Shown: one piece after another, positions 7,193 through 26,200 of the stretch
Layout: each line of letters opens with the position of its first letter
Position numbering within the stretch: position 1 is the stretch's first letter
DNA from: Pelagomonas calceolata
Taxonomy: Eukaryota; Sar; Pelagophyceae; Pelagomonadales; Pelagomonadaceae
DNA: 64,000 nucleotides
Assembly (NCBI GenBank): GCA_918797485.1
Contig: CAKKNE010000001.1
Span: 3,720,001-3,784,000 of the forward strand
Direction of reading: 5' to 3'
Notes under the pieces: model-generated
Seen by the model: the letters and a program-made list of their open reading frames with translations, nothing else
The model's database searches: none
Told to the model about the DNA's origin: nothing
Made by a program: the position numbers and the translations under genes

Positions 7193-10100
7193 ATGGACGA
7201 AATCACCAACACCATGAACACAGACAAAGAGGCAGCAACCGCGGAGCCGCAGCCGGCCGTGCGCGTGCGCGTCGTCGACGCCACGACGCGGAAGACCATG
7301 AATGAGCAGACAGAGGTCGTCTTCGTGCCCTGCGCGGACTCCGAACCGATTAAAATCAAAAATAAGGCACTGGAGCAGCTGCCGGCGCGCCGCTACCTCG
7401 TGAAGGCGACGGCTCCCGGGTATCAGCAGCTCAACTACCTGGAGGGCCCCATCAACATCTACCACGACCACCTCGTCGTGGACCAAGACGGCCGCCCCCA
7501 AAGAGAAGTCGTGATTCAGATGGAGCGGCGCGTCGCGGCGGTCTGGCTCTCGGTTTCCGATTGCAGAGATGGGAAGGCGCTGCCTACCGCTTCCGTGCAA
7601 TTGTTAGATGAGAAAGAAAACGTGTGCCATGTTTTTGATGCGCCTGGTTCGCATGACGTCGCTGCTGTTACATCGGTAACTAAAACGTACGCCTTGAGAT
7701 TGCACCTGAGGGGCTACGTTTTGCATGGGCCTCAATCCGTAACATTAGAACGAGGCAAGCGTATCGACCTATTAATGACGGCGCGGCGCACGGACGTGAA
7801 AGTGGTCTGCCGCGACCTGCGGAGCGGGCGACGGATCGACGATGTAGATATACAATTGATTAACGAGGAGAACGAGGTTTTAGAAGGGGATACGGTGGAC
7901 ACTGATGTTGAGTACCGTATTGTCTGCCGAGCGGAAGGATTCCGCCAGGTTACAAGAATACAAAAATGTACATTCCCGCCAAAATTATTCGCAGGGAGCA
8001 CCTCCCCACTAGAAGTGAGAGTTGATCTGGAACCCGTCAAAAGTTCAATACCTCTGGCGCCGCCTAGAAGGGCGGTCTGGGGCTGGTTGGCATTAGATCA
8101 GCCGTCTCGGAGTGCTCCCGAGACAGAGACAGCTCAAAAGAAGCCAAAGAAGAAGAAGACTCTGGAGGACTGGGGCACGTGTACGATTAATGTGAGGGCC
8201 GTCGACGCGACGTATCCGAAGCCTATTAGATTAGCCGGCGCGCGCGTCCGCGTCGACGGCAACGTAAGTGGCGAGACGGACGAGAGAGGCGCTCTACAAC
8301 TCAAGTTGAGGGCGCCGTCCTCCACAGAAACCTCCGTCACGGTCCAGGTGGAGAAGGACAGCTTTATAAGTGACGCGACGTCGGTAAAGATCCAGGCTTC
8401 GCAAGCAGCCCAAGCGAACATCGCGCTACGGAGGACTCTTGTCAGAGTGGACGTCGTGCACGCGTCTTCTGGGAAACCAGTGACGGGCGACGTCGACTTT
8501 AGTTTAGAGCCGGACGATTCCAGAAGTCCCTTGCCTTGTGTCGAGGCGGGAGACGGTCTTATCTTATCGATAAAGCACGACCGTGCGACCTTCGATGGGG
8601 TCGTCGCGCAGCGCCACCGGGATGAAAGTCAGACGTATTATGACGTCGTCGGTGTCGATGGTTCTGATCTAACGCTGCTGAAGGTGAGAAGGGAAGACCT
8701 GTCACCCACGAAAGATAACATTGTGGTAAGGGAGCTGGAGATCGGCGAAAATGTCGCCTGCTTGTATCCTCATAATGGACGGTATAAACTAACATGTAAA
8801 GCTCCTGGCTTACGATTGAGTGGTCCCTCGGTCAAAACGTTCTCAGCACGAGATTGGACAGAGAAGGGCCCGCTCCAGTTAACGTTGCGGCTCGAACCGT
8901 CCGTGGCGCGACTACGCTTGGCCTGCGCCACCGAGGACGGCGTACCTGTGAGTTGTTTAGCGGATGTCGGCGGCGAACGGCTTGAGTTAAGTGATGATGG
9001 TAGCTTCTCAATGATAGATGTGCCCTTACCACGCGGTAAAGTACAGGCGTCTCTGTCATTACGAGTGGCCGCGCCTCAGTTTATACAAGTGCCGCCCTTT
9101 GAGACGTCTCTCTCATGCGACAGAGCGACAGAAGTAATAGCTTATGTGAGACCCTGCGACGTGAGATTGACCGCCGTCGCCAAGGGGAATATCTTGAAGA
9201 AAGCGACATTGCAACTCATAAGAGTCGACGCCAACGGCGACGACGATGAAATACGCGTCGTGCAGCCCGGGTCTCGAGTTGCGGTGGATGTGGGTGCCGA
9301 GTATCGCGTCCAGGCTTCCGCCAGAGGACATAGACAAGTGGGATTACTCAAGACGTTCATCGCCACCCCGGAGACGTTCTTGAAACAGCCGGGACCGGTC
9401 TCCCTAGCCGTCGACATGGCGCCGGACGTCGGCGCGGTGGACCTGGCCGTGCTCGACGTTGTAGGGAGACCGGTGCGCCACGCGCGCGTCACCGTAACGT
9501 ATGAGCGGTTACCCTCATTGTACCTGGGACATAGGAGAGGCGTGCAGGAGCTCCCGTTGGACGGTTCTGACGAACTCGACGTCGATGTGACCTGTGACGA
9601 AGCGGGCTACGTCCAGGTGAGTCAACAAAGAGTCAGGGTCAAGGCCGGGCGGCTGCGGAAGACGTCCATCATTTTGAGACGAAGCGATATTGTTTTAAGA
9701 GCAATCGATGCAAGAACGGGTGCGACGCTGCGAGCCTTGGAGGATCTACGGTTAGAGTTAAAACCGGTGGAAGAAGGCAAAACGTTGTCATTTAGCGGCG
9801 CGGGCGGCGAGGTCTTTGGGCCGGCGCAAGCCGTGGATCTGCAGAAAGCTTATAGAGTTTGTGTCGACGCTCGGCGCTTCAAACTAGTCGAACCGATTCA
9901 TGCCGTTTCATTCGCAAAAGCGGACTTTGGGGTCTTGGAGGACCACAAGCACCTGGCTCCTCTCTTAGAACGAGCGAGGGATGCGGCTCGGCGGAAAGCT
10001 CGGAGAAGCGGCGTCGACGCCGACCGAGCGGAAGAGCAGTTGCGCCTGGAGATCGACGCTCGGTTAGCCAAGGTGGTGGATGTGCGCGTGGAGCCCCTCG

Positions 10101-13100
10101 TTGGTGACCTGAACGTCGAGGTGATAGACGCTAGAACAGGCTTACCAGTACCTGATATAGCTCTAGTACTGAAAACATCAAACAGTGAAGTTGATTTAGG
10201 ACTACAGAGAGGAATAATAGAGGACATTCCCATGAGTGGAGGCGGAGCCATCGTCACTGCGGAAATTCTAGTGAAGAGTTGCGACCGCGTGCAGCTCGAG
10301 CCGACGCGTTTCGACCTGCGAGCAGGTGAGACGAATGACATCCAAGTGTTTGTAAGGGACGCGGACGTCGTGATCCATTGCGTGGACCAAGAAACGGGCG
10401 ACGCGTTGATCCCGGACGCCTGTTACCTGGAAGGTGGGACTACTTTAGATGCTTCTGACAGGTGTAGGGTCGTTGTTGAGAGAGACTACGAGGTGAGATG
10501 CGTCGTACCTAGATACCGACGGTTAGGCTCAAAACGTTTCAGAGTTACGCGAGACGACTTCCGGACGTTGACAGATGTGGAAACACCATATCAAGTAGTG
10601 GTGCATTTTGAGCCCTGTGAAGCAGATGTCGATTTGCGAGTCGAGGACGCGGCGACGGGTGCGGTGCTATCGAGGGCCCACGTTCGCATTGGCCCGCACT
10701 CCTTGGGCTGCACGCGCGGCTTGGAATCGCTACGGTTGCCTCCCTCGACTCGCCAAGTAACGTGGCCGGTAAGTGCCCAACAGCAGGGCTGGGTGCTTGT
10801 GGCACCTAGGGACGTGGAACTGCATGCCACGCCCCAGCACGACGACGATCCGCGCCAAATTACGATACTAATGCGGCGCTGCGAGGTCTTAGTGAGGTGT
10901 GTCGACGCGATGTCCCGAGAACCGCTCGATGCACACTGTTTGTTAGAACCTGCTAATGATACGACACCACAACCGTGGCGGCTGGACGACGCTGATGACG
11001 CTTGTGTGGTCGACGTTTCTGATACAGAGCGCACCGGTACCATAAAAAGCGTGGGCTCAGATCTATATGACGTGGCCCTAGATGATGGGAGTGAAGAACT
11101 GCGGTGTGCCGCCGAGGAATTGAAACGGGAAGACGGGACGGAACCATCGTCCTATCTTATTGAAGAGCGCGTCGTCGTCAAGCGGCCCCACAGCTATGTA
11201 GTAAGAGCTTCGTGCGACGGCCACCGCCAAGTAACACATTTGGAGGAGATGACTTTTGCAGAATCCGATTTCGCGGGCCTGCCCGTGCAGGCTCCCTTGA
11301 AGCTCGAGGTGGCCATGGAGGCCGTAGCTGGAGTGTTAGATATAAGTGTCGAGGATAAACGAGGAGCCAAAATAAGAACGTGCGAGGTCTGGCTCGACGG
11401 GGTCGCATTGGGGACGCAACGAGGGTTAATACCGATCAACCTGCCGGGCGGCGGGAAGCCCCACGAGGCGCGCGTCGACGTGTCGGCCCCTGGTTACGCG
11501 TTAGTAGGTCCTTCTCGTGTGACAGTGTTTGCGGGGCATACTACTCCATTGAAGATTAGGTTGGTCGCTACAAGATGCCTCATAAGAGTGGAGGATGCGC
11601 GCGACGGCGCGCCGATCGAGTGCCGCGTGTGCTTGGTGCGGGAACGGCCTAGGCCGCGCTTCGACGCGTTGCCGGCCTGGATTCGAGTTGGAGACCGCGT
11701 CGAGGCTAGATTGCAAGGAGACTGGGTCGAGGGCACGCTGGAGGGCGAAGACCCGTATGCGGTGCAATTCGACGATACCACGATACATAACTTCGAGCAG
11801 TGTGATTTGCGGCCGGTTTCTACCTATGACAAGGTCCTGGCGGATCCCGATCTAGATCCGGCCTTCGATGGTGCGGGAAAGAACTGGTGCGACTGGCGCA
11901 GTATGTCGCCATTGGCTATTGATTGCGCCCCGGCCTCGTACCGAGTATTGGTGCAGGACCCTCAAGGGGAGTTTCGCCAGGTCAGCCACTACGAGCCCGT
12001 GGAGTTCGACGTCGATGAGCTCGTGAAGTACAAGGCAGCAGCTCGAGAACACGGGAATGACTCGCTAGCTAGGAAACTGCTAGGGAAGAAAAAGCGGCGA
12101 CCGGAGAAGAAGTCCGGCTGGTTCTCTTGGTCTGCAAAGGAAGAGGAAGTGAAACCGCCGCCCCGGGAAGATGTAAGTGATGGAGACAAGCACGCGAAGG
12201 TGGCTCTCGTTGTGGTCCAGGTGGCTCCGAGAGTCGCCGCGGCCGATTTCAAAGTCGTAGATCAAAGTGGGAAAGCTTTAAAGGCCGACGTTGCGATAGG
12301 AGGCACGAACCTTGGGACACGAAGAGGGCGTGTGGAGTTGGACTGGTGCGCCATCGCGCCGGACGCCTTCCTGCCGCCGGCGTGCGCGTGGCGCCATGCC
12401 GCGGGTGCGAGGGCTGATGGTTCTGGTGTCCCTTGTGCGGTGGTCGCGACGTTGGATGGATATGTGCAGACCTCGGAGGACGTCATTCCATTTAGTTCGA
12501 CTGGTGTCACGTCCTTTAAAGTGGAGATGCGCAAGAGTACGCTTAGGGTCCAATGCTACGACGCCGCTACAAACCAAAAGCTGACGGACGTGGCCGTCGA
12601 CTTAGTGCCTTTAGATGGTCAAGTTGGTGTGAGGTGGACCGCCGGGAGTAGTCAACAACAAAGAGTTGCTGTAGGACGAGCTTATCGGGTCGTCGCGAGG
12701 GGCGGTCGGTTACGACAGACGACGCCGGCGGTTGACGAAGATGTGGTCTTTGGCCGAGCCGACTGGGCCCAACTATCAGATGATAAACCGGCCGAATTAA
12801 GAGTTATGTTGGAGCGAAGGGTCGCTACAGTGGAAGTTAAGGTGCTCGACGCCTCACGCCAACAGGAGACGCTGCTGACGCACGCGAGATGCAAGGTCGG
12901 GGCGACGCACTTCTCGCAAGCCGAAGGCTGGCAACAAGACGTGGACCTCCCCTGCGGGCGCCAGGCCATGCGCGAGATGCCGGCTCTCTGTTCGTTGGAC
13001 GACTACCTCCAATTACCGCCGAAGCGCTGCGACGTCTTCGTCGGCGACGCTCATAATGTCAATCTCGTGGAGCTGCGCATGCGGCCCTTGTCCGTTTGTC

Positions 13101-16100
13101 TCCGAGCGTCATCGTGCTACGACGACAAAGTTATAGAGGGTGTGAAATGGAGGTTGAGACCGGTCTCCCCTGACTTACCCTTAGTGCCGCTCGAAGCGAG
13201 ACTTGAACAAGTGTTGCGGTTGGGTCAGAAATACGTGTTAGAGTGTAGTGTCGACGGCTGGCGCCCCTGCGCGTCACAGGTAGAAGTCGAGGCGGACTCG
13301 CTCATAGCTAGGTTCGAGGGTATTGATCCCAAGGAACCCTTACCGTTGGACATCAAGTTCGAAGCGTCTTCCGTACCAGTACGACTCAATTCTGTCAGGA
13401 TAGAAAACGGAAATGATCCCGACGCGAGGACGTGTGTGGTGGAAGTTGCTGGTAGACGGGTGCCGTACGGTGCTGTCGTGGACATCCCTCTCCCCGAGGA
13501 TGTCGATGCGTCGCAAGGCTGTTCCCTGGACGTGACGGCGTCGTTGCCAGATCAATCATTGACGTTCCTCCCTCACCAAATAAAGTGCTTCCCGGGCAGT
13601 GGCGAAGTGACTCATGTCGATTGCGTCTTCAAGGCTCTCTATTTGTGTGTCACGGTCGTGGACACGATGGACCAGGAATTAGGGGACGCTTCCTATAGGT
13701 TGAACGGCGGTCCTCGTGTTAAATCCGGTTCAAGAGTGGCTGCTCACTTAGGTGAGTGTACAGTCGCGTGCGAAGCAAATGGCTGCCGCCAGACGACGTT
13801 CCTAGAACCTCTGACCTTGATGGAACAGGACTTCATTTCAACAAATGACGGCTTTGAACGTTCCATAAAGGTGGTCTGCGCGCCGAGGATGGCGACAGTA
13901 CTCGTCTCAGTGACCGACGCCACGACCAACGAAGCCCTGCATCGTGCCTCCATAGAAATGCGCCACGCTGATCAAATCGTGTGGTCGAGTGGAGGCACGC
14001 CGGCCGACCGCAAGGGAATCAGAAGAGCAATCTTAGACGACGTTCCGGGAGGCGGGGACGACGTCGAGCTCGCATGTGTTTGTAGTTTAGAAGGATACAC
14101 GCAGATCCAGCCCTTGACCTGTTTGATACGAGCTGGAAGCGCAACGGATGCCCCCTGGACCTGCGAGCTGCTGATGCGCAAGTTTTACGTTTCCGTGGAC
14201 GTCGTCGACAGCCACGGAAAACGCATGGAAGGTGCTGGCGTGGAATTACGATCCTCGAGGGACGTCGTCGCCTACCAGCCTAGCGACGTGAAGGAGCAGG
14301 CGCCGTTACCGATCCAGCTGGATACGTCATATAGCATCTATCCCATCATTTCATCGCTGAAGGGAGCCGGCGGCGAGTACGACTTCCGCGATCGGTGGCA
14401 CGCGGCGGACGCACCCATCGTCTTCTCCCGTAGCGACTTTGAGGTGCTTGAGAGGCGGGCCCGCGAGTCGTTGAAAAGGTCTGTCATGAAATCTGACGAC
14501 CCGCGGTACCCCTTCTTGAAGCGCGTCTGCGAGCGGCCGACGTGGCGCGCGTTGCATGCGTGGATCCAAGTGGCCGGTGTTAAAAGACAGGGCTTCGACG
14601 TGGCGCTGCCGCCCCTCAAATTGGCGGTGCGGGCGTGTCCCGGTCGCTGCTTGGTGGATCTGCGCGTCGTCGACGCGACGGGGGCGCCTTTATCTGATGC
14701 TGCTATTCGTATGAAAACTAGTGAGGAATGGACTACAATACAGCAGGGCGTGCAAGACATACGAGTCCCGGGCGGCGGGGATTTGAGAAAAGTGCATTTC
14801 GACGCTTCATTAGAGGGCCATTTGTTGGACAAGGAGCACGCTTGCGATCTACGAGCGACCTACGATGAAGATGAACCTACGCTAGTTCTGTTGAAGCTGT
14901 TTCCATTAAAACTTCGGATCAGGGTCACCGACGGCCTGGAACCGGCGCGCGGCGCTCGCATAACGATCATGGGCGGCGACGGCGAAGAGACGTCTCTTGT
15001 TAACAGAGAAGGCGTCGGTGAGACTTCATTAACATTGGATGAAGCGTTGGTAGTAACGGCCTCTACAGCTGTCACAAGACACGTGACGCTACGGTACTCG
15101 GCGGACGACGTGCGACGGTCGTGGGCCAATGCACCGGGCGCGCCCGTCACCTGCGACCTCGACCTCGCACGAGCGAACGCGCACGTTACAATCACCGTGA
15201 CTGATCTTGATGGAAAGATCCTCGAGGCCGCCGAGGTCGACTTTGGGGGCCGGCGCTTGACAAGCGGTGACGTCGTCGAGGTGCCGCCCTTGACGGAGCT
15301 GAAAGGCTGTTTCTTGTCAGGATACGTCTTAGATGCACCTTCAGTAGGGTGGCGCGTCCCGACTGATGCAGATGAGGTCGCGTTGTGTGTCAAGATGCGC
15401 CCGACCTTGGTCACTTCCAGACTTGTCGACGCGCGGAGCGGAACTATTGTGGATACGCCCGCCGACGTGACGTTAACATCACAAGATGGCACGACGATCT
15501 CGGGACAAGTCGGCGATGCGTTACATATCACGTGTGACGTACCTTATGATATTCGAGTGACGTCTTCGACAGATCTAAAACAGGTCAGCCACCGCGACGG
15601 CGTCACGTTTACGCCCCAGGAGTCTCTGCTGGACATTAGGGTCGACGTGCCGTCACGATTAGTCGTGGATGTGCGCGACGCCGACACGAACGCGCCTTTA
15701 CTGGATGCGGTTTTGAGTTTGAACGGCACCATTGTTAGTAGAGGCGCCGTCGACGGCTTTGAGCGGTGCACCTCCCTCGACGTCGAGGCGACGCTATCTT
15801 CATATATCCAGCTCACTCCAACAAAAGTCGCTCTCGACCCTTCCCGTAAAACGTCGCTGGTCGTGACGATGCGGGCTTGTAGAGTGATGGTGGACGTGCA
15901 GGACGTGGCGGACGCGCGCATCCGCGTCGACGATCGACAAATAGACGACTGGCGCGTCGAGCCGGGCCGCGAATATACAATAGAGGTCGTCGCCGAGGGA
16001 CGGGAAGTGTATAGGGAGAAAGTACGGTTTGGGGCTGCTTTATTTATTGACGGGCCCTTCACGCATTTGGTGGAATTGAATGCGGCTGCTGTTCAGGTGG

Positions 16101-19100
16101 ATGTGAGCGTCGTCGACGCGACGGGGACTTCATTAAATGACGCGGAGGTCGTTCTAGGTGAAATGGAAGTAGGCCGCGACCGGGGTTTAACGGAAGTGCC
16201 TCTCCCGTCTTCGAGGAACATTGACGTGGCCTGCCGTTTGCCAGGCTTCGTGCTGATGAAACCGCGCTCACTAACAATAAAACGGGGCGAGACCACGACC
16301 TGTCGACTCACGATGCGACCGTCCATGGTCACGCATTCCTTGGAGGGCGCCTCCGTCGAGTTGATAGGTGTGGATGGTGTTGTAGCATTGCCGGGCATTG
16401 TGCAAGTGGGCCAGACCTATACTCTGTACAGTAACACGCACAACGTCGAGGCGCGCTCCATCACTTTTAAAGATGGCGACTGGGACTCCCTGAGAAATGA
16501 CGAAGCTCTAGAGGTCAAGGTCGGCGTCGCCGCGTCGTCAGAAGGCATTGTTCAAGAGGAAAGCGACCTCGTGGACGTGTCCGTGACAGTCGTGGATATT
16601 GATGGAGGCGAGCTTCCGAACGCTTCGGTCAGTCTCGGCTCTACGATGATAGGCACTTCCCGTAAAGGTAGAGTTGGCAGAGGCGCGGTGCCCGTCAGAG
16701 CGACATGCCCGGGCTACGCTTTGGTTGGACCGCGTTCTTATGCTGGTGAAGCCCATTTGCGCCTTATGATGAGGCGGGCCCGCGTTCGATGTAGAGCCTT
16801 GGTGGACGGCGCGGAATTAACAGGAGCGCGCGTCTTGTTCGACAACGACGCTCGAGACTGTATGGAACCAGACCAGTCCTACGCCGTGACCGTGGCCCTG
16901 GAAGATGATGATTACCGCATCAGTGGGGCGGTAGCGAGGTGGCCGGGCGGGAGTCGTTCTTGGAACAACGCCTACGTGACTATCGCATTGCCGCACGACG
17001 CCTGGGCCGAAAAGTCGGAAGTGCAATTTGATCTAAACTTGGTCGCGACGACGGCCGACTTGATGGTGGACATCCGTGAAGAATCAACGGGCTTCCCCGT
17101 GGCTGACGCTTCATTCACGGTAGCGATTGGAGATGATGTATCAACATTTACGGACGCGCGCGGCGTTTTGAGAGTCGCCGTCCCGTCAAAACGCGTCGAC
17201 GCGGTCCTGGAGTGTGACGCTTCGGGCTGCGCGGCGTGGTCTCGAAAACTGTCGCTGCGCGCGGGTTCTAGAACCGAGGTCGAAATACAATTGCGACGCC
17301 TTGAGGGAGACGACGCGTCGTCGTATGAGACGCGGTCCCTGCGGCCCACTACCGAAAGAACATTGGACGACGTCTGGGCCGCTTCTAGAAGATGCCTCGC
17401 GGAGGCGCAATCCGAAACAAGGCCGGCAATGATCAGGGCGGACCTCGACAGGTATGTATTGTTGAGACCGAAGACCGTGGACCTCTCCTACTCGAATACG
17501 GTGCAGCCGTTGACAGTTTGTATGAGACGGTGCAATTTGAGGGGGCGGTGCTACGATGTCAGAGACGGTTCGTTGCTAGATGCTGCTGTGGAAATCGAGG
17601 CGCGGGACCCGGAGCGCGGTCCAGCCTCGCATGGCGACGTTGTGTTGAACGCGAGCTATGCCCTACGATCTAATAAAGAGGGCTGGCGCCAGGTCACGTC
17701 ATTAGGGCCGGTGACGCCGCTCGCGCGCCACTTTTCTGATGGTGATGCCAAGAAGCCGTTGGACGTCTTTATCGGATTGGAGCCGACCCATATTAATTTG
17801 AGAGTGCGCGTGGAACCGGCGGACGCCACCGTTACGGTCCAGGGCTTGTCTGTCAAGAGTGGTCCCTCAACCCTAAAAGTCGAAGACCTTAAGTCAAGGT
17901 GGGTCAAGCACGGCGATTCTCTAGCCTTACCGTTGAAGGTCGAAGCATCCAAAGACGGCTACGTCTCGCATACAACGACTATTTATGCTCGTGCGATGCC
18001 GCACCGCACCGACATAAACATAAAGATGCGCCCTGCTCAAATTTGTATACGGTGCGTCTCCACGGAAGGTATTGTGATAGAGGACGCGATTGATGTGGTC
18101 GTCGAGAACGAGCGCCACTCATTAAAATTCGGCGGCATGGACGAAAGTGTCTTTGGGGCGTGGGTCGCGACGCAAAAAAAAGTGAATAGAAGGGACCGGT
18201 CGCCGGCGCTGCAAGCGTTACTGGAGCATGAAGCCGACGTACGTTCAGAATTATTTGCTGCTGGTAAGGCGGCGTCGTCAGCACGGGTGCTAGAGGTCTT
18301 CACGACGCGCGGCGGTGCCGACGGCGCGCGCCTCGCGGCTCAAGCGGGCCGGTCTAGTAGAGGAGGTGTGGTGGTCGGCGCATCATACACCATAAGAGCG
18401 ACCCACGCGGACTACCTCTCTGATGTGATGGAAAGGCGCTTCGACTCAAATGCCTTTACTGGCAATGGGCCTTTGATTGTTGACGTGCCCTTGGTCCCGG
18501 TCTACTGCGACGTTGTTTTGAGGGTCATTGATGCATCAACAGGCAACGACATTACGGATGGCGACGCGTCGATACACGGTATACGTCTCGGGGAGAGACG
18601 TACGGCGCGATTGCGGCTCTTCGAGCACAGCCGGGAGCCACTCGACGCGGATGTGGTCGTTACGCATAAAACGTACGCTCAAGTTCAAAGTACCTACGAG
18701 CAGCTCAGGCCCGGACCGGTTCTCACGTATACGGTGCGGATGAGACCGACGCGAGTCCTTGTCACACCGACGCACGGTAATGAACCGGTGCCGCTGGCAA
18801 GATGTTCGTTGGTAACGGAGGACAAAGTTCTAGACGCGAATGGGCCTGTCTTGATCGAGTTAAATGTAGCTTACAGAGTACGGGTCGAGCACGCTTCACT
18901 CATAAAAATAGGCGACGACCTTGTAACGTTTAGGAAGGAGCAGTTCTTGGATGATGAACTGTATACACTCAATGTCGAGATGGCCGACAGAGGTGCTTCC
19001 GTCGCCATCGAGGTCGTGGACGAAACGACCGGAGACGCGATCGATGGCCACGTGAAGCTGAGCGGTGTTGAGGTCGGTTCTAGTGTCGACGACGTTACTT

Positions 19101-22100
19101 GGAGAAGGTGCTTTCCCGTGAGAGCGACGTGTATTCACCCGTCAATGTCATTAGTGAAGGCTACGTTACGCGTCGAGCGCGGCGCCGATACGACAGAAGA
19201 TGAAGTTAAAGCATCTAGTGAAGGTGCCCTCGTCCCTTCATATACGCCGAAGGCCGACGAAGGGGCCACGCTCATCCTCAAGCTGCGCTCGCTCCAGTTT
19301 CGCGTTACCTGTACACACGCTGCTGATTCTTCTTTCGTATTTGACGACGCGTCGTTAACCATAGCGCCGCGCGACGCCACGATTAGTACAAGTCTAAAAG
19401 TGGAGAAGCAAGCCAATGGCTGGCTCGTGTCTCAATTGCCGCCCTGTGCGCATGGCTACAGCGTCTGGTGCGCCGTCGGTGGCGCGGCACAAAACAAAGC
19501 TTGCGTCGTGACGCTGGACGAGTTATTGAGAGCGCCGCGGGGCGAAGTTTTTGAGACAATGGTGACGATGGAGCCCATTGACGGCGACATTAATCTAAAC
19601 GTCTCGGACGGCGAGGGGTCGGACGTTGCTTTAGGCGCGCACCGCGTCGGCGGCTGGCGCGGCGCCATTCGGTTAATAGGCGTCTCCACCGGTAGTCTGG
19701 AGGTCGATTCAAACGCGGACGCTTTGGTAGGAGAGTGCCGCGTGCGCGCGGGTGCTTCCCAGCACGTCGCGCTTCGTAGGAGGCGCACTACGGTAGATGT
19801 GGTGGCAAAGTGCGACGGCGCCGTCCTCGAAGACGTGAGATGTTCGTTAAGAGATCAAGACGGTACAATGTTAGATCTGCCGGGGGCCGTCGTCGTTTCT
19901 ACACAAATGGGAACGCGCGACGGGGCTGATGTTTTACTAGACGGCGGCGCACGCGTCAAGGTGCCCAATCATTTAATCGAGGGCGATCGACGAGTCAAGG
20001 TCCCGCGCCGCTACTACACGCTGGAAGTGTCTCGAAGCGGCTACCGCCAAGTGTCACAGAGAGATGTCCAGTTCGCGTTCACGGCCGACCAGTTTGTCAA
20101 CGGAAAGCATCTGCTGGAAGTGGAGATGGAGCGGTGCGGCGCCGAGCTGAGCTTCGACGTTGTTGATAGTTGGGGGAAGCCCTTGGAGGGCGTTGCGCTG
20201 GCGGTGGACGGTGCGCCCGTCTTGGACGGGCGCTGCGGCGTCGAGACTGGTGTTGAGGAAGTGTCTGTCGTGGCTACAAAGGAGGGCTACGTGCAGCTCA
20301 CGCCCGTAGCCACGCGGATGTCGGGACGGGACACGCGTGTCCGGGTCGCGCTAGGGTCATATCGGCTCCACGCCGCCGTCGTCGATGCTGATGGTAAACC
20401 AGTGAACGAATGCGACGTCGACGTCTATTTGAATGATCAATGTATGCAACGGTTGGGACGGTTTAGGAGGAACGTCTTCGTGGCGCCGTCTCTCGAGAAA
20501 TTTGCCTTCCGGGCGTCACTAGAAGGGTGGCACACGGCCGAAGAAAATGTGGACGCGCGGCTCATCGCCCAGCACTCTTCCCGAACCCAGGCGTTCACGT
20601 CCGTCAAGTTCGGGGCGGCCTTCGCATCCAACGAGAGGACGTACTCGCAACGGATGTACCTCGCGGATCGAAGCCGTCTACCGGAGAATTATCCAAGGCA
20701 GTCGCCGCGCGAGACGGCTTGTAGGCGGTTGAAATGCTGGGACGAGATGCGGGCGTTCTTTGCCTGGCGTCTTAATACGGATCTGGTCCCGCAAGCGACG
20801 CCTGAGGTGGGCCGCCACGGCGCCGTCGTTCTGGTCGTCGAGAAGGACGCACCCGTAGCCCCGGAAGTGACGTCCGTGGAAGAAGACGCCCCGGAGAAGA
20901 CCGCGCGCTTCCACGTCGTTAATGTAAGAACGAACAATGCATTGCCCGACGCCCAATTAGTGGTGGACGGCTCCAGACAGGCCCAGGGCATCGTCGCCTC
21001 TTCATCAGATTCTGTAGAGGTACGCTGCGAGCTCGAGGGCTACGTCCAGCTCGGGGAGACCACGCACTCGTTGGACACGGGCACCAATGCCGACATGGCG
21101 GCCTTTGCATTAGACTCTGTCGAGTTAAGGATGCGGCCGCGCGACGTGCGGTTGTGCATCATTGGCGAGGATGAAGCACCGGTCGAGGGCGTCTCCGTCG
21201 TTCTGACGCCTGGAGACATCAGCGTGACGCACGACTCCGTGCTCGTGCTGAGTGGTGAAGTTTATAAGGTTACGTGTGCGACGCCGGGCTGGGTTTGTGG
21301 TTCCGATACCTTGGAGGTCTCCACTGAAGCGTTCCGTGCGTCGGAAGCGGTGTTAGTGAGAGAGTTGAGGGTGGAGCGCGCGCGCGTCGCCGTGGACGTG
21401 GAGGTTATCGACGTGGCCACTGGTGAAATGATCCCGGACGTTTCCGTGACCATCGGCGGCGTAGCCATTGAACATGGGTCGCTGCCCTACGATGCCACGC
21501 AGGGCGACCAATCTATTGAGGTGGCCTTCGCCGAGGAGTCCTGGATCGTATTACGGCCAATCACAGTAAACCTCGAAGATACAACATCAATAAGGGTGGA
21601 GTGCCGCCGGTGTTCTTGTATCGTGAGCGTCGTGGAGCAGTATACAAGTAAGACGCTCGAAAGTGCAAGGGTGACCTGTGGCGATGTTGAGTATGAGGCG
21701 GGTTCTGTTTTCGAGGTGAAGCCCGGGTCCTATCCTTTATCAATCACGCTGGAGGGCGCCGAGACCATACAGGAGTACACGCTAGATGCGTCCCCAGAAG
21801 CCTTCTCGTCCCTGGAAGACGACCAGCCCATGATCCTAACAGTCGAAATGCGCGCGACACACTCATTACTAGATCTGAGGGTGGAAGATGAAAATGGACA
21901 ACTGTTGGACGATGCTACCATCTTTTTGGACGGCGAGGCCCACACACCAGGTTTGGTACGTAAGCCTTTCGCTGATGACGATGAGAAAACGTTCTCCGTT
22001 TATGCGAGCAAACCTGGATACGCCTTTGCGGGGCCCTCCTCCTTCAGCGTGTCGCGGGCGAAGATCGGTATGACGCGTCAATTGGTCGTGAGGATGCGCC

Positions 22101-25100
22101 CCGCTCTCGTACGGTGTACAGTAGTCGACGAAGACGGTTCTGCGTTGGACGCTGTCGTAAGGCTCACGCCTCCATCAGGACCGGAAGTCAACGACGTCGT
22201 CGATGTGGATACGGTATACAAGGTGGACTGTACGTTGAGGAAGTATCATAGATCTGGTATAAGGTGCGACTATGGTACCGTAAGTCGAGAGGGCGACGCC
22301 TTTTGTATTCAGTTCACGGACGCGGACTTCATGCGATCGTCGGCTCCACTGGAAGTAGAAGTCACGATGGAGCCCGCGCGCTGTGTCATTGACCTGTCGC
22401 TGGTCGAGGAGACTTCGACTGAGTCTGTTCTAGATACGATTTTAGTCGACATTGGACAGCGGGGCTTTTCGACGGACCGGAGGTGGTCCGCTTCATTGTC
22501 CGAGCTTCCGGAAAGACTGTCAATTGCTATCAGAGCGACGAAGCACGTCCTCGTGGGGCCGACGGTCGTGACTGCTGTCGAGGACGTGGTCGCGCAGACG
22601 CTGTGTGTCCGGCCCGCGCTTGTTGAAGCTCTGGTGTATGACGAAGATCATCAGCAAGTAGAGGGCGCGGACGTCTGGCTGAAGCCTTTGGACGACGTGC
22701 ATGCAGCTTCTCTCGTTGTCCTCGAGGCAGGTGTACAAAAACAATGTCTCGTGGAACTCGGGCGGGAGTACGCCGTGACCTGCCGCAAGGAACGTTTTCA
22801 TACAAATTGCGCCACCTTCAAAGCCACGGCCGATCAACTAAGGGCGTTGGCACCTGGTTCATGTTTGAGGCTCGAGATCGAGGCGCGGCGGACGCAGTAC
22901 AAGAGCGTCGACGTCCAAGTACGGGGCCTCTACGACGTTGGTAGTGGTGAAAAAGACCCAGCAACCTTAGCCTCGGTGTCGATCAACGACGTGGACCTGG
23001 GGCCAACGAGAGGTCTTAGGGACGTCGCGGCGGCCGATACCACTCTAAGCACGTCATGCAGGTTGCGGGGCTGGGCCCAGCTGCCGCCCTACGCCGTCCC
23101 CGTTGTTGAAGATGTTACACCTATCAACTTGGAGATGGTGCCCGCGTTGATCCGAGCCGTGGCTGACGTCGAGGTAGAATGCTGGCTCGAGACTGAGGGA
23201 GACACGATCCAAGTGCCCACGATTGGGTGGACAAGGGTCCAGGTTGGTATGGAGTATACGTTGCGGGCGCGCGCTCCGGGCATGCGCCTCGCTTCCAGTA
23301 AAAGCGTGACCTTCACAAGAGAGCAGTTCTGGGAGGCGTCGCGTCAAATGGAGGCGCCGCCGTCCTCGTCCAGTCCCGTCGTCGTCTCCTTAGATTTAGT
23401 CCTGGAACCGTCAACATGTCAGGTGGAGCTGGAGGTGAATAACGACGACTGCAGCTTGACGCTCGAAAGGTCGGGCCTGCCCGACCTGAGCTTGCAACGA
23501 GGCTCGCAGGTCGTCGAGGGGCTACCCTCATCAAGCGTTTCTTCCACACTACGCGCATCCCTCAAAGGCCACGCGCAACTGAAACCGCTCGGACCCATTA
23601 CATTAGTGGCGGCCCAAAGGCACGCCGTCTCCATTGAGATGAGGCCGGCGACCGTTCTATGCAAATGTATTGATGCGCGGACGGGTGCGGAGTTGGTGCA
23701 TGCGCGCGTCCGTTATGAGGGAGGCGGAGACGTGCGGTACGGAGGTCGTCGCTCACCGGTCGTCGTGGACCCGGCCCATTACCGGGGCTGTATTATTGAA
23801 GAGAGGGTCGGCGACGCCTACCGCATTTTGAGAGATGACGGCGAATCGGTAATAGTGGATGCGGACCGCTTGCGCGGCTCTTCGCCAGAGTGGACCGCGC
23901 TCGAGCAAGGACCGCCCTTGAATTATGTGTACGAGGTCAACCAACACGTATGGAATGGAAAGCGCCACGGCACCATCGCGTCCATCAAAGACACGACGTA
24001 TCGTGTGGAGTTCGAGGACGGCGCGGCCGATGTGGATGCGTCGAGGTTGAGGCCTTTGAACTATGATTTCAGGCGGCACCTACCTCCGGGATTGCGGTGC
24101 GAGGTGCGCACGGGCGGCTCATATCAAATCACGGCGGAGCTGAAGGGCTGGCGCCAGCTCGACTACACGTCTCCGCACGTCTTCGAGAACGAGGCGTTTG
24201 TTGCATTGGGCGGTCCCGTCAAGCCCGATATTCAAGAATGGGACGCTTCTGTAGTGACGCCGTTGTCCACATCAAGCAAGTCGTTGTGGACGCGCTTTTT
24301 GAAGCCCGATTTAGGAAGAGCTCTGAGGACGTGGCACCTCGGCGCGGAGGCGACGCGTGAGGCTCGTGCTCAAGATGGTAAACTAATAGCGCCTCCGTTG
24401 CGACTGGCGATGCGTTTGGTGCCGGGCGTCGGGTCTGTCGACCTCAGTGTCACGTGCGATCATGTGGACGTGGACGCGGACATTTCCCTGATTCCCGTAC
24501 AGGAAAGTAAAGCGGACCCTTCCATAGTTCTAGGGGAACGACGGGGCATCATAAACAATTTGGAGGTGGCCGGCGCCGGCGAGCCTGCTTTGTACAAAGT
24601 ACGGGCCAAAAAGTTTGGGTACAGGGTGATGGAGCCCTCTACCATTTCCCTAAAAGCGGGCGCGTGCACTGCTGTCTCCGTCCAGTTGGCGCGCTGCCTG
24701 GCCAACGTAAACTTGAACGTTTCAGGAAAGCCGTTTGTGGGAGACGCAATTGTGCGAGTGGTTTCGAATGAAGTGGTCCTGGCGAGCGTCGAGGCGCGAG
24801 ACGGTAAATGTGCAGTGCCCGTGGATCCAAGGGTGGCAAGCAAGTTGGTGGTGGACGCCGATCGGCACGAGCAGATTTCAGCATTAAACAACGTGACCTG
24901 GGCTCCTTCCGATTTTGAGAAAGGCGTGACCGTAGACATCGCCCTCAGGGCCATTGCCGTCACGTTGGACGTGTCTGTGGTCGACGCCGCTTCCCGTAAA
25001 GAACTACCGGCGGCAGATGTAAGAGTGGGCGGCATCGATTTAGGGAAGAGGCGCGGTTTTGTTGAATTGAGCGACCTCTCCCAAACGGGACTCGTACGAA

Positions 25101-26200
25101 TGGCCGCATCTTTACAAGGGTATCACATGCTGCCTCCATATAATGTTGAGCTTCTTCCAGGTTCTATTGTCAACGTTGCGTTGCGATTGCGGCGCTTCGA
25201 AGTTGTTTTGAATGCGGCGAAGCGGAAGCACGGGAGCCTCCAGAAGCTGGCGTCGGCGGAGGTGGCTCTCTATCACAATGGAGAGAAAGTAATGAATAAG
25301 GACGGCGTCTACGGTATTGAACCCAATCAAAGCTACGCCATAATAGCTAGAGCAGAGGGCCACCGCCAGGCGTCGCTGACCGATTCCATAATTTTCTCGC
25401 CGCAGCATTTTGATGATGGTCTTGGGGATAGACTCGAACTCACCGTAGAACTAGAATCGGAGCTCTTCGAGGCGTTGGTGCGAGTTGTGGATGATGAGAC
25501 CGGGGCACCGTTGGACGGCGCCATCATACAACTGGATGGATTCGAGACCTCTGGGCCTTCACCACCAACGGGCTGGCGGCGCATTGGGAAGAAGTTGGAG
25601 GGCGTCGCGGGGCCCGCCGCCTTCCTGCCGTGCGTCGCCGCGGCGCCTCGGCGCGTCCAGACGTCGACGGCGCGTGTCGAACTGAGAAATGATGGGGTAG
25701 TGCCGTGTACCACTTTGCGACTGCGAAGGGCTTCCATCGCCGTGCGCGTGCTGGACGACGAGGGGCGCGCGGTCCAAGACCCGGTGGTCCAGGTCGGCCT
25801 CTCGTCGAAAGCACCGGAGGAGGTCTCGACGCCGCGCGTGGGGACAATGGCCTTAGACAGACGACGCCCGGCGCCGCAATATGTGCGGCCGCGCAACGAG
25901 GTGCTCGTGGTCCTCGACCACTTCTACGATGTAAGGGTGGTGCATGAACAGATGCGCCAGCGCGACTTATTGGACCCGCAGCGCTTCGAGGTCATGGACT
26001 TCGGTCGTAGATCTGGAGACGCGGCGCTTTCGATCCGAATGGAGCCCTACCGGTGCGCCGTGGACCTGAAAGTGGTGGACGCGTTCGGCGACGACCTGCC
26101 GCGCGCGCGCGTGCGCCTCGGCGACCATGATCTCGGGACGCGGCGCGGCGTGCTCGACCTCGGGCCGAACGGTGCAGTTTCATCTCCGGAGGAGGAGTAA
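7193..26200 (+). CDS. Giant 6335-residue protein of alternating beta-rich A and B modules
   Basis: One uninterrupted 19-kb frame; the first in-frame ATG is at 7193 (MDEITNTMNT). The protein alternates two modules of about 100 residues, roughly 32 B and 32 A. A modules open like VDLRVVDATGAPLSDA, carry LGTRRG near the middle, then GYVQLxP, and end in MRP or LRR. B modules open like VRCVDARTG, carry GxxYxVxxxAxGxRQVS, then VxFxxxxF, and end in VxMEP. Length and pattern recall carboxypeptidase-regulatory, PEGA or transthyretin-like beta sandwiches; this is a fold guess. Several B modules hold Tudor/SH3-like inserts and others hold charged helical inserts. No signal peptide, membrane helix or enzyme motif was seen, so a cytoplasmic scaffold or ruler-type role is plausible but unproven. 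The last A module stops about halfway. Confidence 0.9.
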   Translation: MDEITNTMNTDKEAATAEPQPAVRVRVVDATTRKTMNEQTEVVFVPCADSEPIKIKNKALEQLPARRYLVKATAPGYQQLNYLEGPINIYHDHLVVDQDGRPQREVVIQMERRVAAVWLSVSDCRDGKALPTASVQLLDEKENVCHVFDAPGSHDVAAVTSVTKTYALRLHLRGYVLHGPQSVTLERGKRIDLLMTARRTDVKVVCRDLRSGRRIDDVDIQLINEENEVLEGDTVDTDVEYRIVCRAEGFRQVTRIQKCTFPPKLFAGSTSPLEVRVDLEPVKSSIPLAPPRRAVWGWLALDQPSRSAPETETAQKKPKKKKTLEDWGTCTINVRAVDATYPKPIRLAGARVRVDGNVSGETDERGALQLKLRAPSSTETSVTVQVEKDSFISDATSVKIQASQAAQANIALRRTLVRVDVVHASSGKPVTGDVDFSLEPDDSRSPLPCVEAGDGLILSIKHDRATFDGVVAQRHRDESQTYYDVVGVDGSDLTLLKVRREDLSPTKDNIVVRELEIGENVACLYPHNGRYKLTCKAPGLRLSGPSVKTFSARDWTEKGPLQLTLRLEPSVARLRLACATEDGVPVSCLADVGGERLELSDDGSFSMIDVPLPRGKVQASLSLRVAAPQFIQVPPFETSLSCDRATEVIAYVRPCDVRLTAVAKGNILKKATLQLIRVDANGDDDEIRVVQPGSRVAVDVGAEYRVQASARGHRQVGLLKTFIATPETFLKQPGPVSLAVDMAPDVGAVDLAVLDVVGRPVRHARVTVTYERLPSLYLGHRRGVQELPLDGSDELDVDVTCDEAGYVQVSQQRVRVKAGRLRKTSIILRRSDIVLRAIDARTGATLRALEDLRLELKPVEEGKTLSFSGAGGEVFGPAQAVDLQKAYRVCVDARRFKLVEPIHAVSFAKADFGVLEDHKHLAPLLERARDAARRKARRSGVDADRAEEQLRLEIDARLAKVVDVRVEPLVGDLNVEVIDARTGLPVPDIALVLKTSNSEVDLGLQRGIIEDIPMSGGGAIVTAEILVKSCDRVQLEPTRFDLRAGETNDIQVFVRDADVVIHCVDQETGDALIPDACYLEGGTTLDASDRCRVVVERDYEVRCVVPRYRRLGSKRFRVTRDDFRTLTDVETPYQVVVHFEPCEADVDLRVEDAATGAVLSRAHVRIGPHSLGCTRGLESLRLPPSTRQVTWPVSAQQQGWVLVAPRDVELHATPQHDDDPRQITILMRRCEVLVRCVDAMSREPLDAHCLLEPANDTTPQPWRLDDADDACVVDVSDTERTGTIKSVGSDLYDVALDDGSEELRCAAEELKREDGTEPSSYLIEERVVVKRPHSYVVRASCDGHRQVTHLEEMTFAESDFAGLPVQAPLKLEVAMEAVAGVLDISVEDKRGAKIRTCEVWLDGVALGTQRGLIPINLPGGGKPHEARVDVSAPGYALVGPSRVTVFAGHTTPLKIRLVATRCLIRVEDARDGAPIECRVCLVRERPRPRFDALPAWIRVGDRVEARLQGDWVEGTLEGEDPYAVQFDDTTIHNFEQCDLRPVSTYDKVLADPDLDPAFDGAGKNWCDWRSMSPLAIDCAPASYRVLVQDPQGEFRQVSHYEPVEFDVDELVKYKAAAREHGNDSLARKLLGKKKRRPEKKSGWFSWSAKEEEVKPPPREDVSDGDKHAKVALVVVQVAPRVAAADFKVVDQSGKALKADVAIGGTNLGTRRGRVELDWCAIAPDAFLPPACAWRHAAGARADGSGVPCAVVATLDGYVQTSEDVIPFSSTGVTSFKVEMRKSTLRVQCYDAATNQKLTDVAVDLVPLDGQVGVRWTAGSSQQQRVAVGRAYRVVARGGRLRQTTPAVDEDVVFGRADWAQLSDDKPAELRVMLERRVATVEVKVLDASRQQETLLTHARCKVGATHFSQAEGWQQDVDLPCGRQAMREMPALCSLDDYLQLPPKRCDVFVGDAHNVNLVELRMRPLSVCLRASSCYDDKVIEGVKWRLRPVSPDLPLVPLEARLEQVLRLGQKYVLECSVDGWRPCASQVEVEADSLIARFEGIDPKEPLPLDIKFEASSVPVRLNSVRIENGNDPDARTCVVEVAGRRVPYGAVVDIPLPEDVDASQGCSLDVTASLPDQSLTFLPHQIKCFPGSGEVTHVDCVFKALYLCVTVVDTMDQELGDASYRLNGGPRVKSGSRVAAHLGECTVACEANGCRQTTFLEPLTLMEQDFISTNDGFERSIKVVCAPRMATVLVSVTDATTNEALHRASIEMRHADQIVWSSGGTPADRKGIRRAILDDVPGGGDDVELACVCSLEGYTQIQPLTCLIRAGSATDAPWTCELLMRKFYVSVDVVDSHGKRMEGAGVELRSSRDVVAYQPSDVKEQAPLPIQLDTSYSIYPIISSLKGAGGEYDFRDRWHAADAPIVFSRSDFEVLERRARESLKRSVMKSDDPRYPFLKRVCERPTWRALHAWIQVAGVKRQGFDVALPPLKLAVRACPGRCLVDLRVVDATGAPLSDAAIRMKTSEEWTTIQQGVQDIRVPGGGDLRKVHFDASLEGHLLDKEHACDLRATYDEDEPTLVLLKLFPLKLRIRVTDGLEPARGARITIMGGDGEETSLVNREGVGETSLTLDEALVVTASTAVTRHVTLRYSADDVRRSWANAPGAPVTCDLDLARANAHVTITVTDLDGKILEAAEVDFGGRRLTSGDVVEVPPLTELKGCFLSGYVLDAPSVGWRVPTDADEVALCVKMRPTLVTSRLVDARSGTIVDTPADVTLTSQDGTTISGQVGDALHITCDVPYDIRVTSSTDLKQVSHRDGVTFTPQESLLDIRVDVPSRLVVDVRDADTNAPLLDAVLSLNGTIVSRGAVDGFERCTSLDVEATLSSYIQLTPTKVALDPSRKTSLVVTMRACRVMVDVQDVADARIRVDDRQIDDWRVEPGREYTIEVVAEGREVYREKVRFGAALFIDGPFTHLVELNAAAVQVDVSVVDATGTSLNDAEVVLGEMEVGRDRGLTEVPLPSSRNIDVACRLPGFVLMKPRSLTIKRGETTTCRLTMRPSMVTHSLEGASVELIGVDGVVALPGIVQVGQTYTLYSNTHNVEARSITFKDGDWDSLRNDEALEVKVGVAASSEGIVQEESDLVDVSVTVVDIDGGELPNASVSLGSTMIGTSRKGRVGRGAVPVRATCPGYALVGPRSYAGEAHLRLMMRRARVRCRALVDGAELTGARVLFDNDARDCMEPDQSYAVTVALEDDDYRISGAVARWPGGSRSWNNAYVTIALPHDAWAEKSEVQFDLNLVATTADLMVDIREESTGFPVADASFTVAIGDDVSTFTDARGVLRVAVPSKRVDAVLECDASGCAAWSRKLSLRAGSRTEVEIQLRRLEGDDASSYETRSLRPTTERTLDDVWAASRRCLAEAQSETRPAMIRADLDRYVLLRPKTVDLSYSNTVQPLTVCMRRCNLRGRCYDVRDGSLLDAAVEIEARDPERGPASHGDVVLNASYALRSNKEGWRQVTSLGPVTPLARHFSDGDAKKPLDVFIGLEPTHINLRVRVEPADATVTVQGLSVKSGPSTLKVEDLKSRWVKHGDSLALPLKVEASKDGYVSHTTTIYARAMPHRTDINIKMRPAQICIRCVSTEGIVIEDAIDVVVENERHSLKFGGMDESVFGAWVATQKKVNRRDRSPALQALLEHEADVRSELFAAGKAASSARVLEVFTTRGGADGARLAAQAGRSSRGGVVVGASYTIRATHADYLSDVMERRFDSNAFTGNGPLIVDVPLVPVYCDVVLRVIDASTGNDITDGDASIHGIRLGERRTARLRLFEHSREPLDADVVVTHKTYAQVQSTYEQLRPGPVLTYTVRMRPTRVLVTPTHGNEPVPLARCSLVTEDKVLDANGPVLIELNVAYRVRVEHASLIKIGDDLVTFRKEQFLDDELYTLNVEMADRGASVAIEVVDETTGDAIDGHVKLSGVEVGSSVDDVTWRRCFPVRATCIHPSMSLVKATLRVERGADTTEDEVKASSEGALVPSYTPKADEGATLILKLRSLQFRVTCTHAADSSFVFDDASLTIAPRDATISTSLKVEKQANGWLVSQLPPCAHGYSVWCAVGGAAQNKACVVTLDELLRAPRGEVFETMVTMEPIDGDINLNVSDGEGSDVALGAHRVGGWRGAIRLIGVSTGSLEVDSNADALVGECRVRAGASQHVALRRRRTTVDVVAKCDGAVLEDVRCSLRDQDGTMLDLPGAVVVSTQMGTRDGADVLLDGGARVKVPNHLIEGDRRVKVPRRYYTLEVSRSGYRQVSQRDVQFAFTADQFVNGKHLLEVEMERCGAELSFDVVDSWGKPLEGVALAVDGAPVLDGRCGVETGVEEVSVVATKEGYVQLTPVATRMSGRDTRVRVALGSYRLHAAVVDADGKPVNECDVDVYLNDQCMQRLGRFRRNVFVAPSLEKFAFRASLEGWHTAEENVDARLIAQHSSRTQAFTSVKFGAAFASNERTYSQRMYLADRSRLPENYPRQSPRETACRRLKCWDEMRAFFAWRLNTDLVPQATPEVGRHGAVVLVVEKDAPVAPEVTSVEEDAPEKTARFHVVNVRTNNALPDAQLVVDGSRQAQGIVASSSDSVEVRCELEGYVQLGETTHSLDTGTNADMAAFALDSVELRMRPRDVRLCIIGEDEAPVEGVSVVLTPGDISVTHDSVLVLSGEVYKVTCATPGWVCGSDTLEVSTEAFRASEAVLVRELRVERARVAVDVEVIDVATGEMIPDVSVTIGGVAIEHGSLPYDATQGDQSIEVAFAEESWIVLRPITVNLEDTTSIRVECRRCSCIVSVVEQYTSKTLESARVTCGDVEYEAGSVFEVKPGSYPLSITLEGAETIQEYTLDASPEAFSSLEDDQPMILTVEMRATHSLLDLRVEDENGQLLDDATIFLDGEAHTPGLVRKPFADDDEKTFSVYASKPGYAFAGPSSFSVSRAKIGMTRQLVVRMRPALVRCTVVDEDGSALDAVVRLTPPSGPEVNDVVDVDTVYKVDCTLRKYHRSGIRCDYGTVSREGDAFCIQFTDADFMRSSAPLEVEVTMEPARCVIDLSLVEETSTESVLDTILVDIGQRGFSTDRRWSASLSELPERLSIAIRATKHVLVGPTVVTAVEDVVAQTLCVRPALVEALVYDEDHQQVEGADVWLKPLDDVHAASLVVLEAGVQKQCLVELGREYAVTCRKERFHTNCATFKATADQLRALAPGSCLRLEIEARRTQYKSVDVQVRGLYDVGSGEKDPATLASVSINDVDLGPTRGLRDVAAADTTLSTSCRLRGWAQLPPYAVPVVEDVTPINLEMVPALIRAVADVEVECWLETEGDTIQVPTIGWTRVQVGMEYTLRARAPGMRLASSKSVTFTREQFWEASRQMEAPPSSSSPVVVSLDLVLEPSTCQVELEVNNDDCSLTLERSGLPDLSLQRGSQVVEGLPSSSVSSTLRASLKGHAQLKPLGPITLVAAQRHAVSIEMRPATVLCKCIDARTGAELVHARVRYEGGGDVRYGGRRSPVVVDPAHYRGCIIEERVGDAYRILRDDGESVIVDADRLRGSSPEWTALEQGPPLNYVYEVNQHVWNGKRHGTIASIKDTTYRVEFEDGAADVDASRLRPLNYDFRRHLPPGLRCEVRTGGSYQITAELKGWRQLDYTSPHVFENEAFVALGGPVKPDIQEWDASVVTPLSTSSKSLWTRFLKPDLGRALRTWHLGAEATREARAQDGKLIAPPLRLAMRLVPGVGSVDLSVTCDHVDVDADISLIPVQESKADPSIVLGERRGIINNLEVAGAGEPALYKVRAKKFGYRVMEPSTISLKAGACTAVSVQLARCLANVNLNVSGKPFVGDAIVRVVSNEVVLASVEARDGKCAVPVDPRVASKLVVDADRHEQISALNNVTWAPSDFEKGVTVDIALRAIAVTLDVSVVDAASRKELPAADVRVGGIDLGKRRGFVELSDLSQTGLVRMAASLQGYHMLPPYNVELLPGSIVNVALRLRRFEVVLNAAKRKHGSLQKLASAEVALYHNGEKVMNKDGVYGIEPNQSYAIIARAEGHRQASLTDSIIFSPQHFDDGLGDRLELTVELESELFEALVRVVDDETGAPLDGAIIQLDGFETSGPSPPTGWRRIGKKLEGVAGPAAFLPCVAAAPRRVQTSTARVELRNDGVVPCTTLRLRRASIAVRVLDDEGRAVQDPVVQVGLSSKAPEEVSTPRVGTMALDRRRPAPQYVRPRNEVLVVLDHFYDVRVVHEQMRQRDLLDPQRFEVMDFGRRSGDAALSIRMEPYRCAVDLKVVDAFGDDLPRARVRLGDHDLGTRRGVLDLGPNGAVSSPEEE
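8570..8706 (+). other. Tudor/SH3-like insert in third B module
   Basis: The insert contains FDGVVAQRH, then YYDVVGVDGSDLTLLKV, then REDLSP. This is the pattern of a small beta barrel that reads a variable loop (G-V/I at the start, Y-x-V at mid-point, D-L at the end). It sits between the opening strands of the module and its GxxYxL half, as do the other such inserts. Confidence 0.45.
11031..11130 (+). other. Tudor/SH3-like insert in seventh B module
   Basis: The insert reads TGTIKSVGSDLYDVALDDGS followed by an Ala/Glu-rich strand and EELKRED. The order matches a Tudor-like barrel: a G-x-I start, Y-D-V centre, acidic DDGS turn and a terminal EL. Confidence 0.45.
11680..11822 (+). other. Tudor/agenet-like insert in eighth B module
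   Basis: This is the clearest of the inserts. IRVGDRVEARLQGDWVEGTL is followed by YAVQFDD and CDLRPVS. This closely follows the Tudor/agenet arrangement (VGDxVEARxxGxWxxGxI, then Y-x-V-x-F-x-D, then L-R-P). Such domains often bind methylated or flexible peptides, but the aromatic cage cannot be judged by eye. Confidence 0.6.
19900..20004 (+). other. Tudor/SH3-like remnant in twenty-second B module
   Basis: MGTRDGADVLLDGGARVKVP is followed by HLIEGDRRVKVP and then YYTLEVSRSGYRQVS. It looks like a shortened barrel insert at the same position in the module as the fuller examples. Weak on its own; the shared position supports it. Confidence 0.35.
23775..24060 (+). other. Two tandem Tudor-like inserts in twenty-ninth B module
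   Basis: The first contains YRGCIIEERVGDAYRILRDD then VIVDADRLRG. The second contains YEVNQHVWNGKRHGTIASIK then YRVEFEDG and ASRLRPLN. Both have the G-x-I, Y-R-V/I, acidic-turn and L-R order. They lie before ITAELKGWRQL of the host module, so one B module carries two barrels in a row. Confidence 0.55.

Follow-up and report, generated by a model that had tools for sequence, protein, structure and literature searches.

The 64,000-nucleotide stretch of Pelagomonas calceolata DNA analyzed here (the window; GenBank assembly GCA_918797485.1, contig CAKKNE010000001.1, positions 3,720,001 to 3,784,000) encodes, on its forward strand, a protein of 6335 amino acids (aa) in which two types of small beta-sandwich module, A and B, alternate in a fixed order that is largely shared with relatives from a second genus. 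The best explanation that we can offer, and one that we hold with about even confidence, is that this is a single giant protein with a structural role inside the cell, a stiff rod or scaffold of about 64 transthyretin-like beta-sandwiches, the function being what we infer from this architecture.

An unbroken frame of two alternating module types

The giant gene (7193..26200, forward strand) runs uninterrupted for 6335 codons from an ATG at 7193 to a TAA stop at 26198-26200. An earlier note, made from the letters of this DNA, had described just such a protein, with about 32 modules of each of two strictly alternating types, and this description held up. We parsed the modules by hand on their end motifs and obtained 64 pieces, B1-B32 and A1-A32, with B1 first and a half A32 last. 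The 160 aa parsed as A17 comprise a normal A17 of 83 aa, 42 aa of linker and, as an orphan, the C-terminal half of another A. The protein thus has 32 B modules; of A it has 31 complete copies and two halves. Array I, with 17 dyads, comes first in the chain, followed by the linker and one half A; array II, with 15 B and 14 A, and the other half A complete it. Complete A modules are 68-102 aa long, with A17 trimmed to 83 aa, and hold inserts of at most 13 residues relative to the A profile; B modules measure between 69 and 259 aa, ten of the 32 being longer than 115 aa.

The alternation is far above chance. When all 63 modules other than A32 were classified by leave-one-out profiles built on one label-blind alignment, 61 fell into the expected class (A13 and B23 were missed), compared with 29, 31, 29, 30, 35 and 38 of 63 in six label shuffles. 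A maximum-likelihood tree of the same 63 modules (82 columns) needs two changes between the A and B labels against a shuffled mean of about 21, and none of 500 shuffles was as low, in a tree in which 48 of the 60 inner branches are open. The two types are distant homologues (hhalign probability 97.2%, E 3.7e-11), and the simplest history of the array is one split into A and B followed by duplication of the dyad.

A known fold in a new architecture

The fold was predicted with high confidence for the dyad A30-B31, at a mean predicted local distance difference test score (pLDDT) of 94.1. It consists of transthyretin-like beta-sandwiches joined, from A to B, by a single residue, and its fold neighbours include 1d2p, 8bdw_A and 3phs, with pilins and carboxypeptidases among the matches listed. 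The corresponding Pfam family, PF13620 (CarboxypepD_reg), exceeds its gathering score in one stretch only, A17 (residues 3298-3368; 32.7 versus 32.3 bits); it matches 8 of 33 dyads at E ≤ 1 (best 0.0014), and scores 28.3 bits with the A consensus and 19.6 bits with the B consensus, both below the cut-off. The proposal of the earlier note that the modules are compact sandwiches of the carboxypeptidase-regulatory or transthyretin type is thus borne out by the profile matches, the dyad prediction and the fold matches alike. Its comparison with titin stands as regards a long tandem of small beta-sandwiches in one chain, here taken as intracellular, but not as regards the domain family: no Ig or Fn3 domain rises above a Pfam cut-off in the giant protein (Fn3_arc is weak in 4 of 33 dyads), there is no kinase match, and the two-type alternation is strict. 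Among the 50 fold matches listed there is no chain of an Ig giant or of an axonemal protein, a list that in itself excludes nothing.

The transthyretin-like domain of metallocarboxypeptidases is likewise a relative rather than an equivalent. No peptidase family, M14 included, turned up when the whole protein was scanned against Pfam in two pieces, and the domain occurs here in 64 copies of two alternating types in an apparently intracellular protein. The CnaB repeats of bacterial stalks and pilins (1d2p, 8bdw_A, 3phs) share the fold and the tandem, stalk-like arrangement; they are extracellular and cross-linked by isopeptide bonds, and in the A and B consensus sequences, judged by eye and with no dedicated search, no conserved Lys or Asn is prominent. 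We conclude that this is a new architecture made of a known fold.

Neither a signal peptide nor a membrane helix was found, in agreement with the earlier note. The N-terminus is not hydrophobic by eye, and there is no strong hydrophobic helix, the highest 19-residue mean being 1.91 with two windows above 1.6 (the Ala-rich relative P0005, introduced below, reaches 2.11 with 21 windows above 1.6). The favoured reading places the protein inside the cell, judging by the absence of a signal peptide and by the Tudor-like inserts described below.

That a gene of this size should lack introns had seemed noteworthy in the earlier note. The frame is indeed unbroken, but in this alga that is ordinary: an extract of the published genome description gives 32.4 Mb, divided among six nuclear contigs, the plastid and the mitochondrion, and 16,667 genes with an average of 0.45 introns per gene (PMC9481584). 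At the density of the genome (about 7,500 introns in 32.4 Mb, by simple arithmetic) a 19-kb stretch would be expected to hold about four. Length alone is not unique either, since predicted proteins of 7000-11000 aa are mentioned for plants and green algae in an extract of PMC6681478.

Relatives keep the order of the modules

The earlier note had suggested a search for orthologues among pelagophytes, and the pelagophyte Aureococcus carries one. A first protein search, with residues 1-4990 as query and 859 candidates scored, found P0003 (6214 aa, 61% identical to the giant protein, from a 56.6-kb ENA contig) and P0004 (6984 aa, an Aureococcus anophagefferens protein named 'Ca2-binding protein'). 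A second search, with P0004 as query and 763 candidates scored, added P0005 (7323 aa, from a 24.4-kb ENA contig), which begins within B6 and shows 94% identity with P0004 over the part that aligns best, 30% of the query, as well as P0006, a further Aureococcus model whose modules are unparsed. P0004 and P0006 seem to be spliced gene models in which parts are missing. P0003 shares the start motif MD[ED]ITN[TV]M[ND] and the end region of the giant protein.

The relatives are largely colinear with the Pelagomonas protein. The best match of a module lies at the same place for 62 of 64 modules in P0003 (A22 and B23 are missed), for 46 of 57 in P0004, with seven more modules past the P0004 end, and for 47 of 54 in P0005. 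Profiles built from the giant protein alone detect 60 modules in P0003, where 57 of 59 neighbours alternate, and 53 in P0005, where 45 of 52 do so. Eight of the nine breaks in alternation in these two proteins fall at gaps of more than 80 residues, in which modules were probably missed by detection; the ninth falls at the A17 half.

The two differences in module number seen among the relatives each seem to involve an entire A-B dyad. In P0003 a Glu/Ala-rich linker takes the place of A22-B23, and near this site the Aureococcus relatives have one apparent extra dyad, the B of which (placed by reading) is opened by a block of six EF loops. By one search pattern, EF loops number six each in P0004 and P0005 and none in either the giant protein or P0003; Pfam also finds EF-hands in P0004 and P0006. 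The EF-hand block lies inside the array, at about residues 4400-4930 of P0005, and is also seen in P0004. The Aureococcus 'Ca2-binding protein' is an orthologue, mostly colinear in the case of P0004, whose database name thus rests on the EF-hands alone, an insert not present in the Pelagomonas protein.

Within the P. calceolata genome no paralogue was found: residues 1-1333, 2001-3333 and 4501-6335, used as queries, match this gene only, and PF13620 has one further, sub-threshold match, on contig 5. No shorter relative (about 447-1422 aa) appeared among 8000 candidates scored, and bacterial and archaeal genomes yielded one short match, in Roseicyclus (31% over about 74 residues). A viral or mobile origin was considered and rejected, there being no relative in viral contigs (one 1333-aa query, one alignment of an 813-residue region) or phages. 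Within the searches made, the architecture is so far known from Pelagomonas, Aureococcus and close relatives only. Literature searches on pelagophyte giant proteins, the Aureococcus anophagefferens Ca2-binding protein and tandem carboxypeptidase regulatory-like eukaryotic giants found nothing, and searches on titin-like algal proteins and the largest microalgal tandem repeat proteins gave no title on this protein among the matches listed.

Inserts in the B modules

The Tudor-like and helical inserts of the B modules, the EF-hands of Aureococcus and the two complementary half-A modules go beyond the earlier note. In alignment, B3, B7, B8 and, twice, B29 share short stretches in which one Tyr is invariant and DDG often comes after it. 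A profile of these inserts (13 stretches from three proteins; 23 sequences matched at E ≤ 1) picks up Tudor domains of KDM4 with E values between 3.4e-4 and 7.1e-4. Weak matches to the B8 region number 17 (E 0.025-1.7); 15 of these fall on the insert and are mostly what we take to be Tudor or Agenet proteins. The insert in Aureococcus B8 matches Tudor_5 at E 2.1e-5 (24.6 of 31 bits) and SGF29_Tudor at 7.3e-5, both below their cut-offs, while the Pelagomonas inserts on their own match DUF families, or Tudor weakly; the two B29 inserts together reach DUF7141 at its cut-off. Helical-looking inserts were seen by eye before the last strand of B5, B8, B12, B23 and B29. The positions of these and other features are given in Table 1.

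Table 1. Parts of the giant gene and features within it; positions refer to the window
Feature	Position	Strand	Remarks
Giant open reading frame	7193..26200	+	6335 aa, 692 kDa, isoelectric point 5.3
Array I, B1-A1 ... B17-A17 (17 dyads)	7193..17299	+	module parse; last residue of A17 itself, 3369
Tudor-like insert in B3, residues 456-503	8558..8701	+	alignment, profile matches
Charged, helical-looking insert before last strand of B5	9938..10066	+	by eye
Tudor-like insert in B7, residues 1271-1313	11003..11131	+	alignment, profile; alone, best Pfam match DUF5097 (E 0.0015, below cut-off)
Tudor/Agenet-like insert in B8, residues 1496-1542	11678..11818	+	alignment, profile; alone, sole Pfam match DUF5348 (E 0.0071)
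B12 insert, motif RYPFLKR..ERPTWRALHAW	14486..14599	+	by eye; recurs in Aureococcus B modules
Linker in place of expected B and first A half, residues 3370-3411	17300..17425	+	motif TLxDVWxASxRxL; P0003 and P0005 arranged alike (by reading)
Orphan C-terminal half A, residues 3412-3446	17426..17530	+	A profile positions 49-86 of 88
Array II, B18-A18 ... A31-B32 (15 B, 14 A)	17531..26047	+	module parse
Possible degenerate Tudor-like insert in B22, residues 4231-4271	19883..20005	+	by eye; module over-length
Dyad A22-B23, missing from P0003	20135..20848	+	adjoins EF-hand insertion site of Aureococcus relatives
Tudor-like insert 1 in B29, residues 5523-5563	23759..23881	+	alignment, profile
Tudor-like insert 2 in B29, residues 5580-5622	23930..24058	+	alignment, profile
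Dyad A30-B31, structure predicted	24953..25459	+	mean pLDDT 94.1
Terminal N-terminal half A (A32), residues 6286-6335	26048..26197	+	A profile positions 4-45 of 88

Two complementary half modules

The two half A modules complement each other. On the A profile of 88 positions, the terminal and orphan halves cover 4-45 and 49-86 in the giant protein, 4-46 and 50-86 in P0005, and 4-45 and 35-86 in P0003, where the surplus part is linker; the 31 complete A modules all span about 4-86, except A12, the match of which ends at 77. The predicted ends of the giant protein, P0003 and P0005 lie 14-16 residues past the same RG. Compared with P0003, the terminal half is identical at 36 of 39 positions (92%) and ranks first among 30 A first-halves (A17 and A22 left out); compared with P0005, it is identical at 27 of 39 (69%) and ranks first among 24 (from the 27 A modules from A6 on, with A17, A23 and A27 left out for length). 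Half a sandwich kept so well should have a partner. The orphan half is the natural one to propose, given that none of the other parsed A modules is cut in half.

We considered whether A32 continues past the stop. The forward frame after 26200 resembles the missing half, but 276 of 1999 shuffles of its letters score equally well or better, and the stretch is occupied by a DnaJ gene on the other strand; this candidate was rejected.

The two halves could instead form one A domain, closing a loop out of array II (15 B, 14 A and the rejoined A), much as a beta-propeller is closed by a velcro strand, or linking neighbouring molecules into a polymer. From the sequence we consider this split-module closure doubtful. 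In its favour are the complementary profile positions, found alike in P0003 and P0005, the full span of the complete A modules and the conservation of the terminal half, the best kept of the A first-halves compared. Against it, the break at positions 45-49 is located in a loop of the kind that tolerates inserts, of which there are about four, and a common break point could therefore arise by chance about one time in four; moreover, conservation of the orphan half is unremarkable (21 of 35 residues identical with P0003, 13 of 35 with P0005). The extended proposal, a fixed-order molecular ruler with a clasp, in which array II would form a ring or link molecules through the split A, array I would stay a rod and B modules would carry binding domains, is in our opinion likewise rather unlikely.

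Weighing the explanations

A flagellar or basal-body role, as in axonemal giants built of beta domains, seems improbable to us. It gains something from a kinesin gene on the same strand and a Jhy-domain gene on the other, both upstream; a GNAT gene on the other strand separates the kinesin gene from the giant gene, however, and neighbouring genes are weak evidence in a eukaryote. ASH and MSP domains are absent from the Pfam matches at E ≤ 1, Hydin appeared only at E 1.5 in a profile search of solved structures, and an axonemal component confined to pelagophytes would be surprising. The coccoid form of Aureococcus, tried as a further argument against this role, was dropped because Aureococcus retains flagellar genes according to extracts of PMC2582488 and PMC4736243; an orthologue there does not count against it. 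Just as improbable would be a scaffold in the nucleus or in RNA granules whose putative Tudor-like inserts read methylated proteins. The inserts in B3, B7, B8 and B29 and two basic clusters, KKPKKKK (residues 316-322) and KKKRRPEKK (1632-1640), fit such a role, but by eye P0004 lacks the first cluster and has a weak second one, and Tudor-like barrels are present in many cytosolic proteins. We think it very improbable that the protein is secreted or part of a theca, comparable to bacterial CnaB stalks, with an upstream signal exon missed: surface proteins are numerous among the fold relatives, for example pilins and carboxypeptidases that are secreted or membrane-bound, yet P0003 shares the start of the frame, and Tudor-like inserts are intracellular in known proteins.

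The intracellular rod or scaffold thus remains our preferred reading. The intact frame, the alternation, the predicted fold of one dyad and the largely colinear relatives are established parts of it; stiffness over many modules is an extrapolation, since only one dyad was modelled well. Several observations weigh against it. That dyad is an A-to-B pair, and the B-to-A joint lacks a confident model; a three-module model, A7-B8-A8 with the B8 insert, was poor (mean pLDDT 53.6, from an alignment of three rows). Modules without their own counterpart as best match number 2 of 64 in P0003, 11 of 57 in P0004 and 7 of 54 in P0005. All Tudor matches of the inserts are below Pfam cut-offs, and the insert profile matches the SH3-like ribosomal protein L21e (8.9e-6) better than any Tudor. 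The half-domain end is unexplained by a scaffold role.

If the scaffold reading is right, the array would have grown by repeated duplication of the A-B pair, and the order of its modules may have been fixed before Pelagomonas and Aureococcus split. The A modules would serve as spacers and the B modules as carriers, from which Tudor-like barrels and helices, and in Aureococcus EF-hands as well, would be presented at points along the rod. Several partners might in this way be held at set distances by a scaffold or ruler, which at 3.5-4 nm per domain would measure about 200-250 nm if fully extended. Tandem repeat proteins often vary in repeat number; a strict two-type order, largely colinear between genera, implies that position along the chain matters. 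With an intracellular transthyretin-like rod one could test how long protein rulers are assembled and kept fixed.

Neighbouring genes and introner-like elements

Upstream of the giant gene, 2864-7002 holds the Jhy-domain, kinesin and GNAT acetyltransferase genes. Downstream lies the minus-strand DnaJ gene (26245-27105), which contains an intron-like element of about 126 bases (26453-26578) with inverted ends, CCTGTGTGGAAATCAA...TTGATTTCCACACAGG. The 16-base end of this element has 574 + 531 copies in the genome (reversed control, 0), and the element recalls the introner elements of about 210 bases reported for P. calceolata in an extract of PMC9481584. The 13-base core of the introner-like end has no copy in the giant gene. 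A second copy of the end, TTGATTTCCACAC, lies at 44369, near the open reading frames at 43587-44953. A second long open frame, 34050-40538 on the minus strand, encodes 2162 aa with two C2 stretches and, by eye, IQ-like motifs, and a SUN-domain (Sad1/UNC) protein is encoded at 51848-53182.
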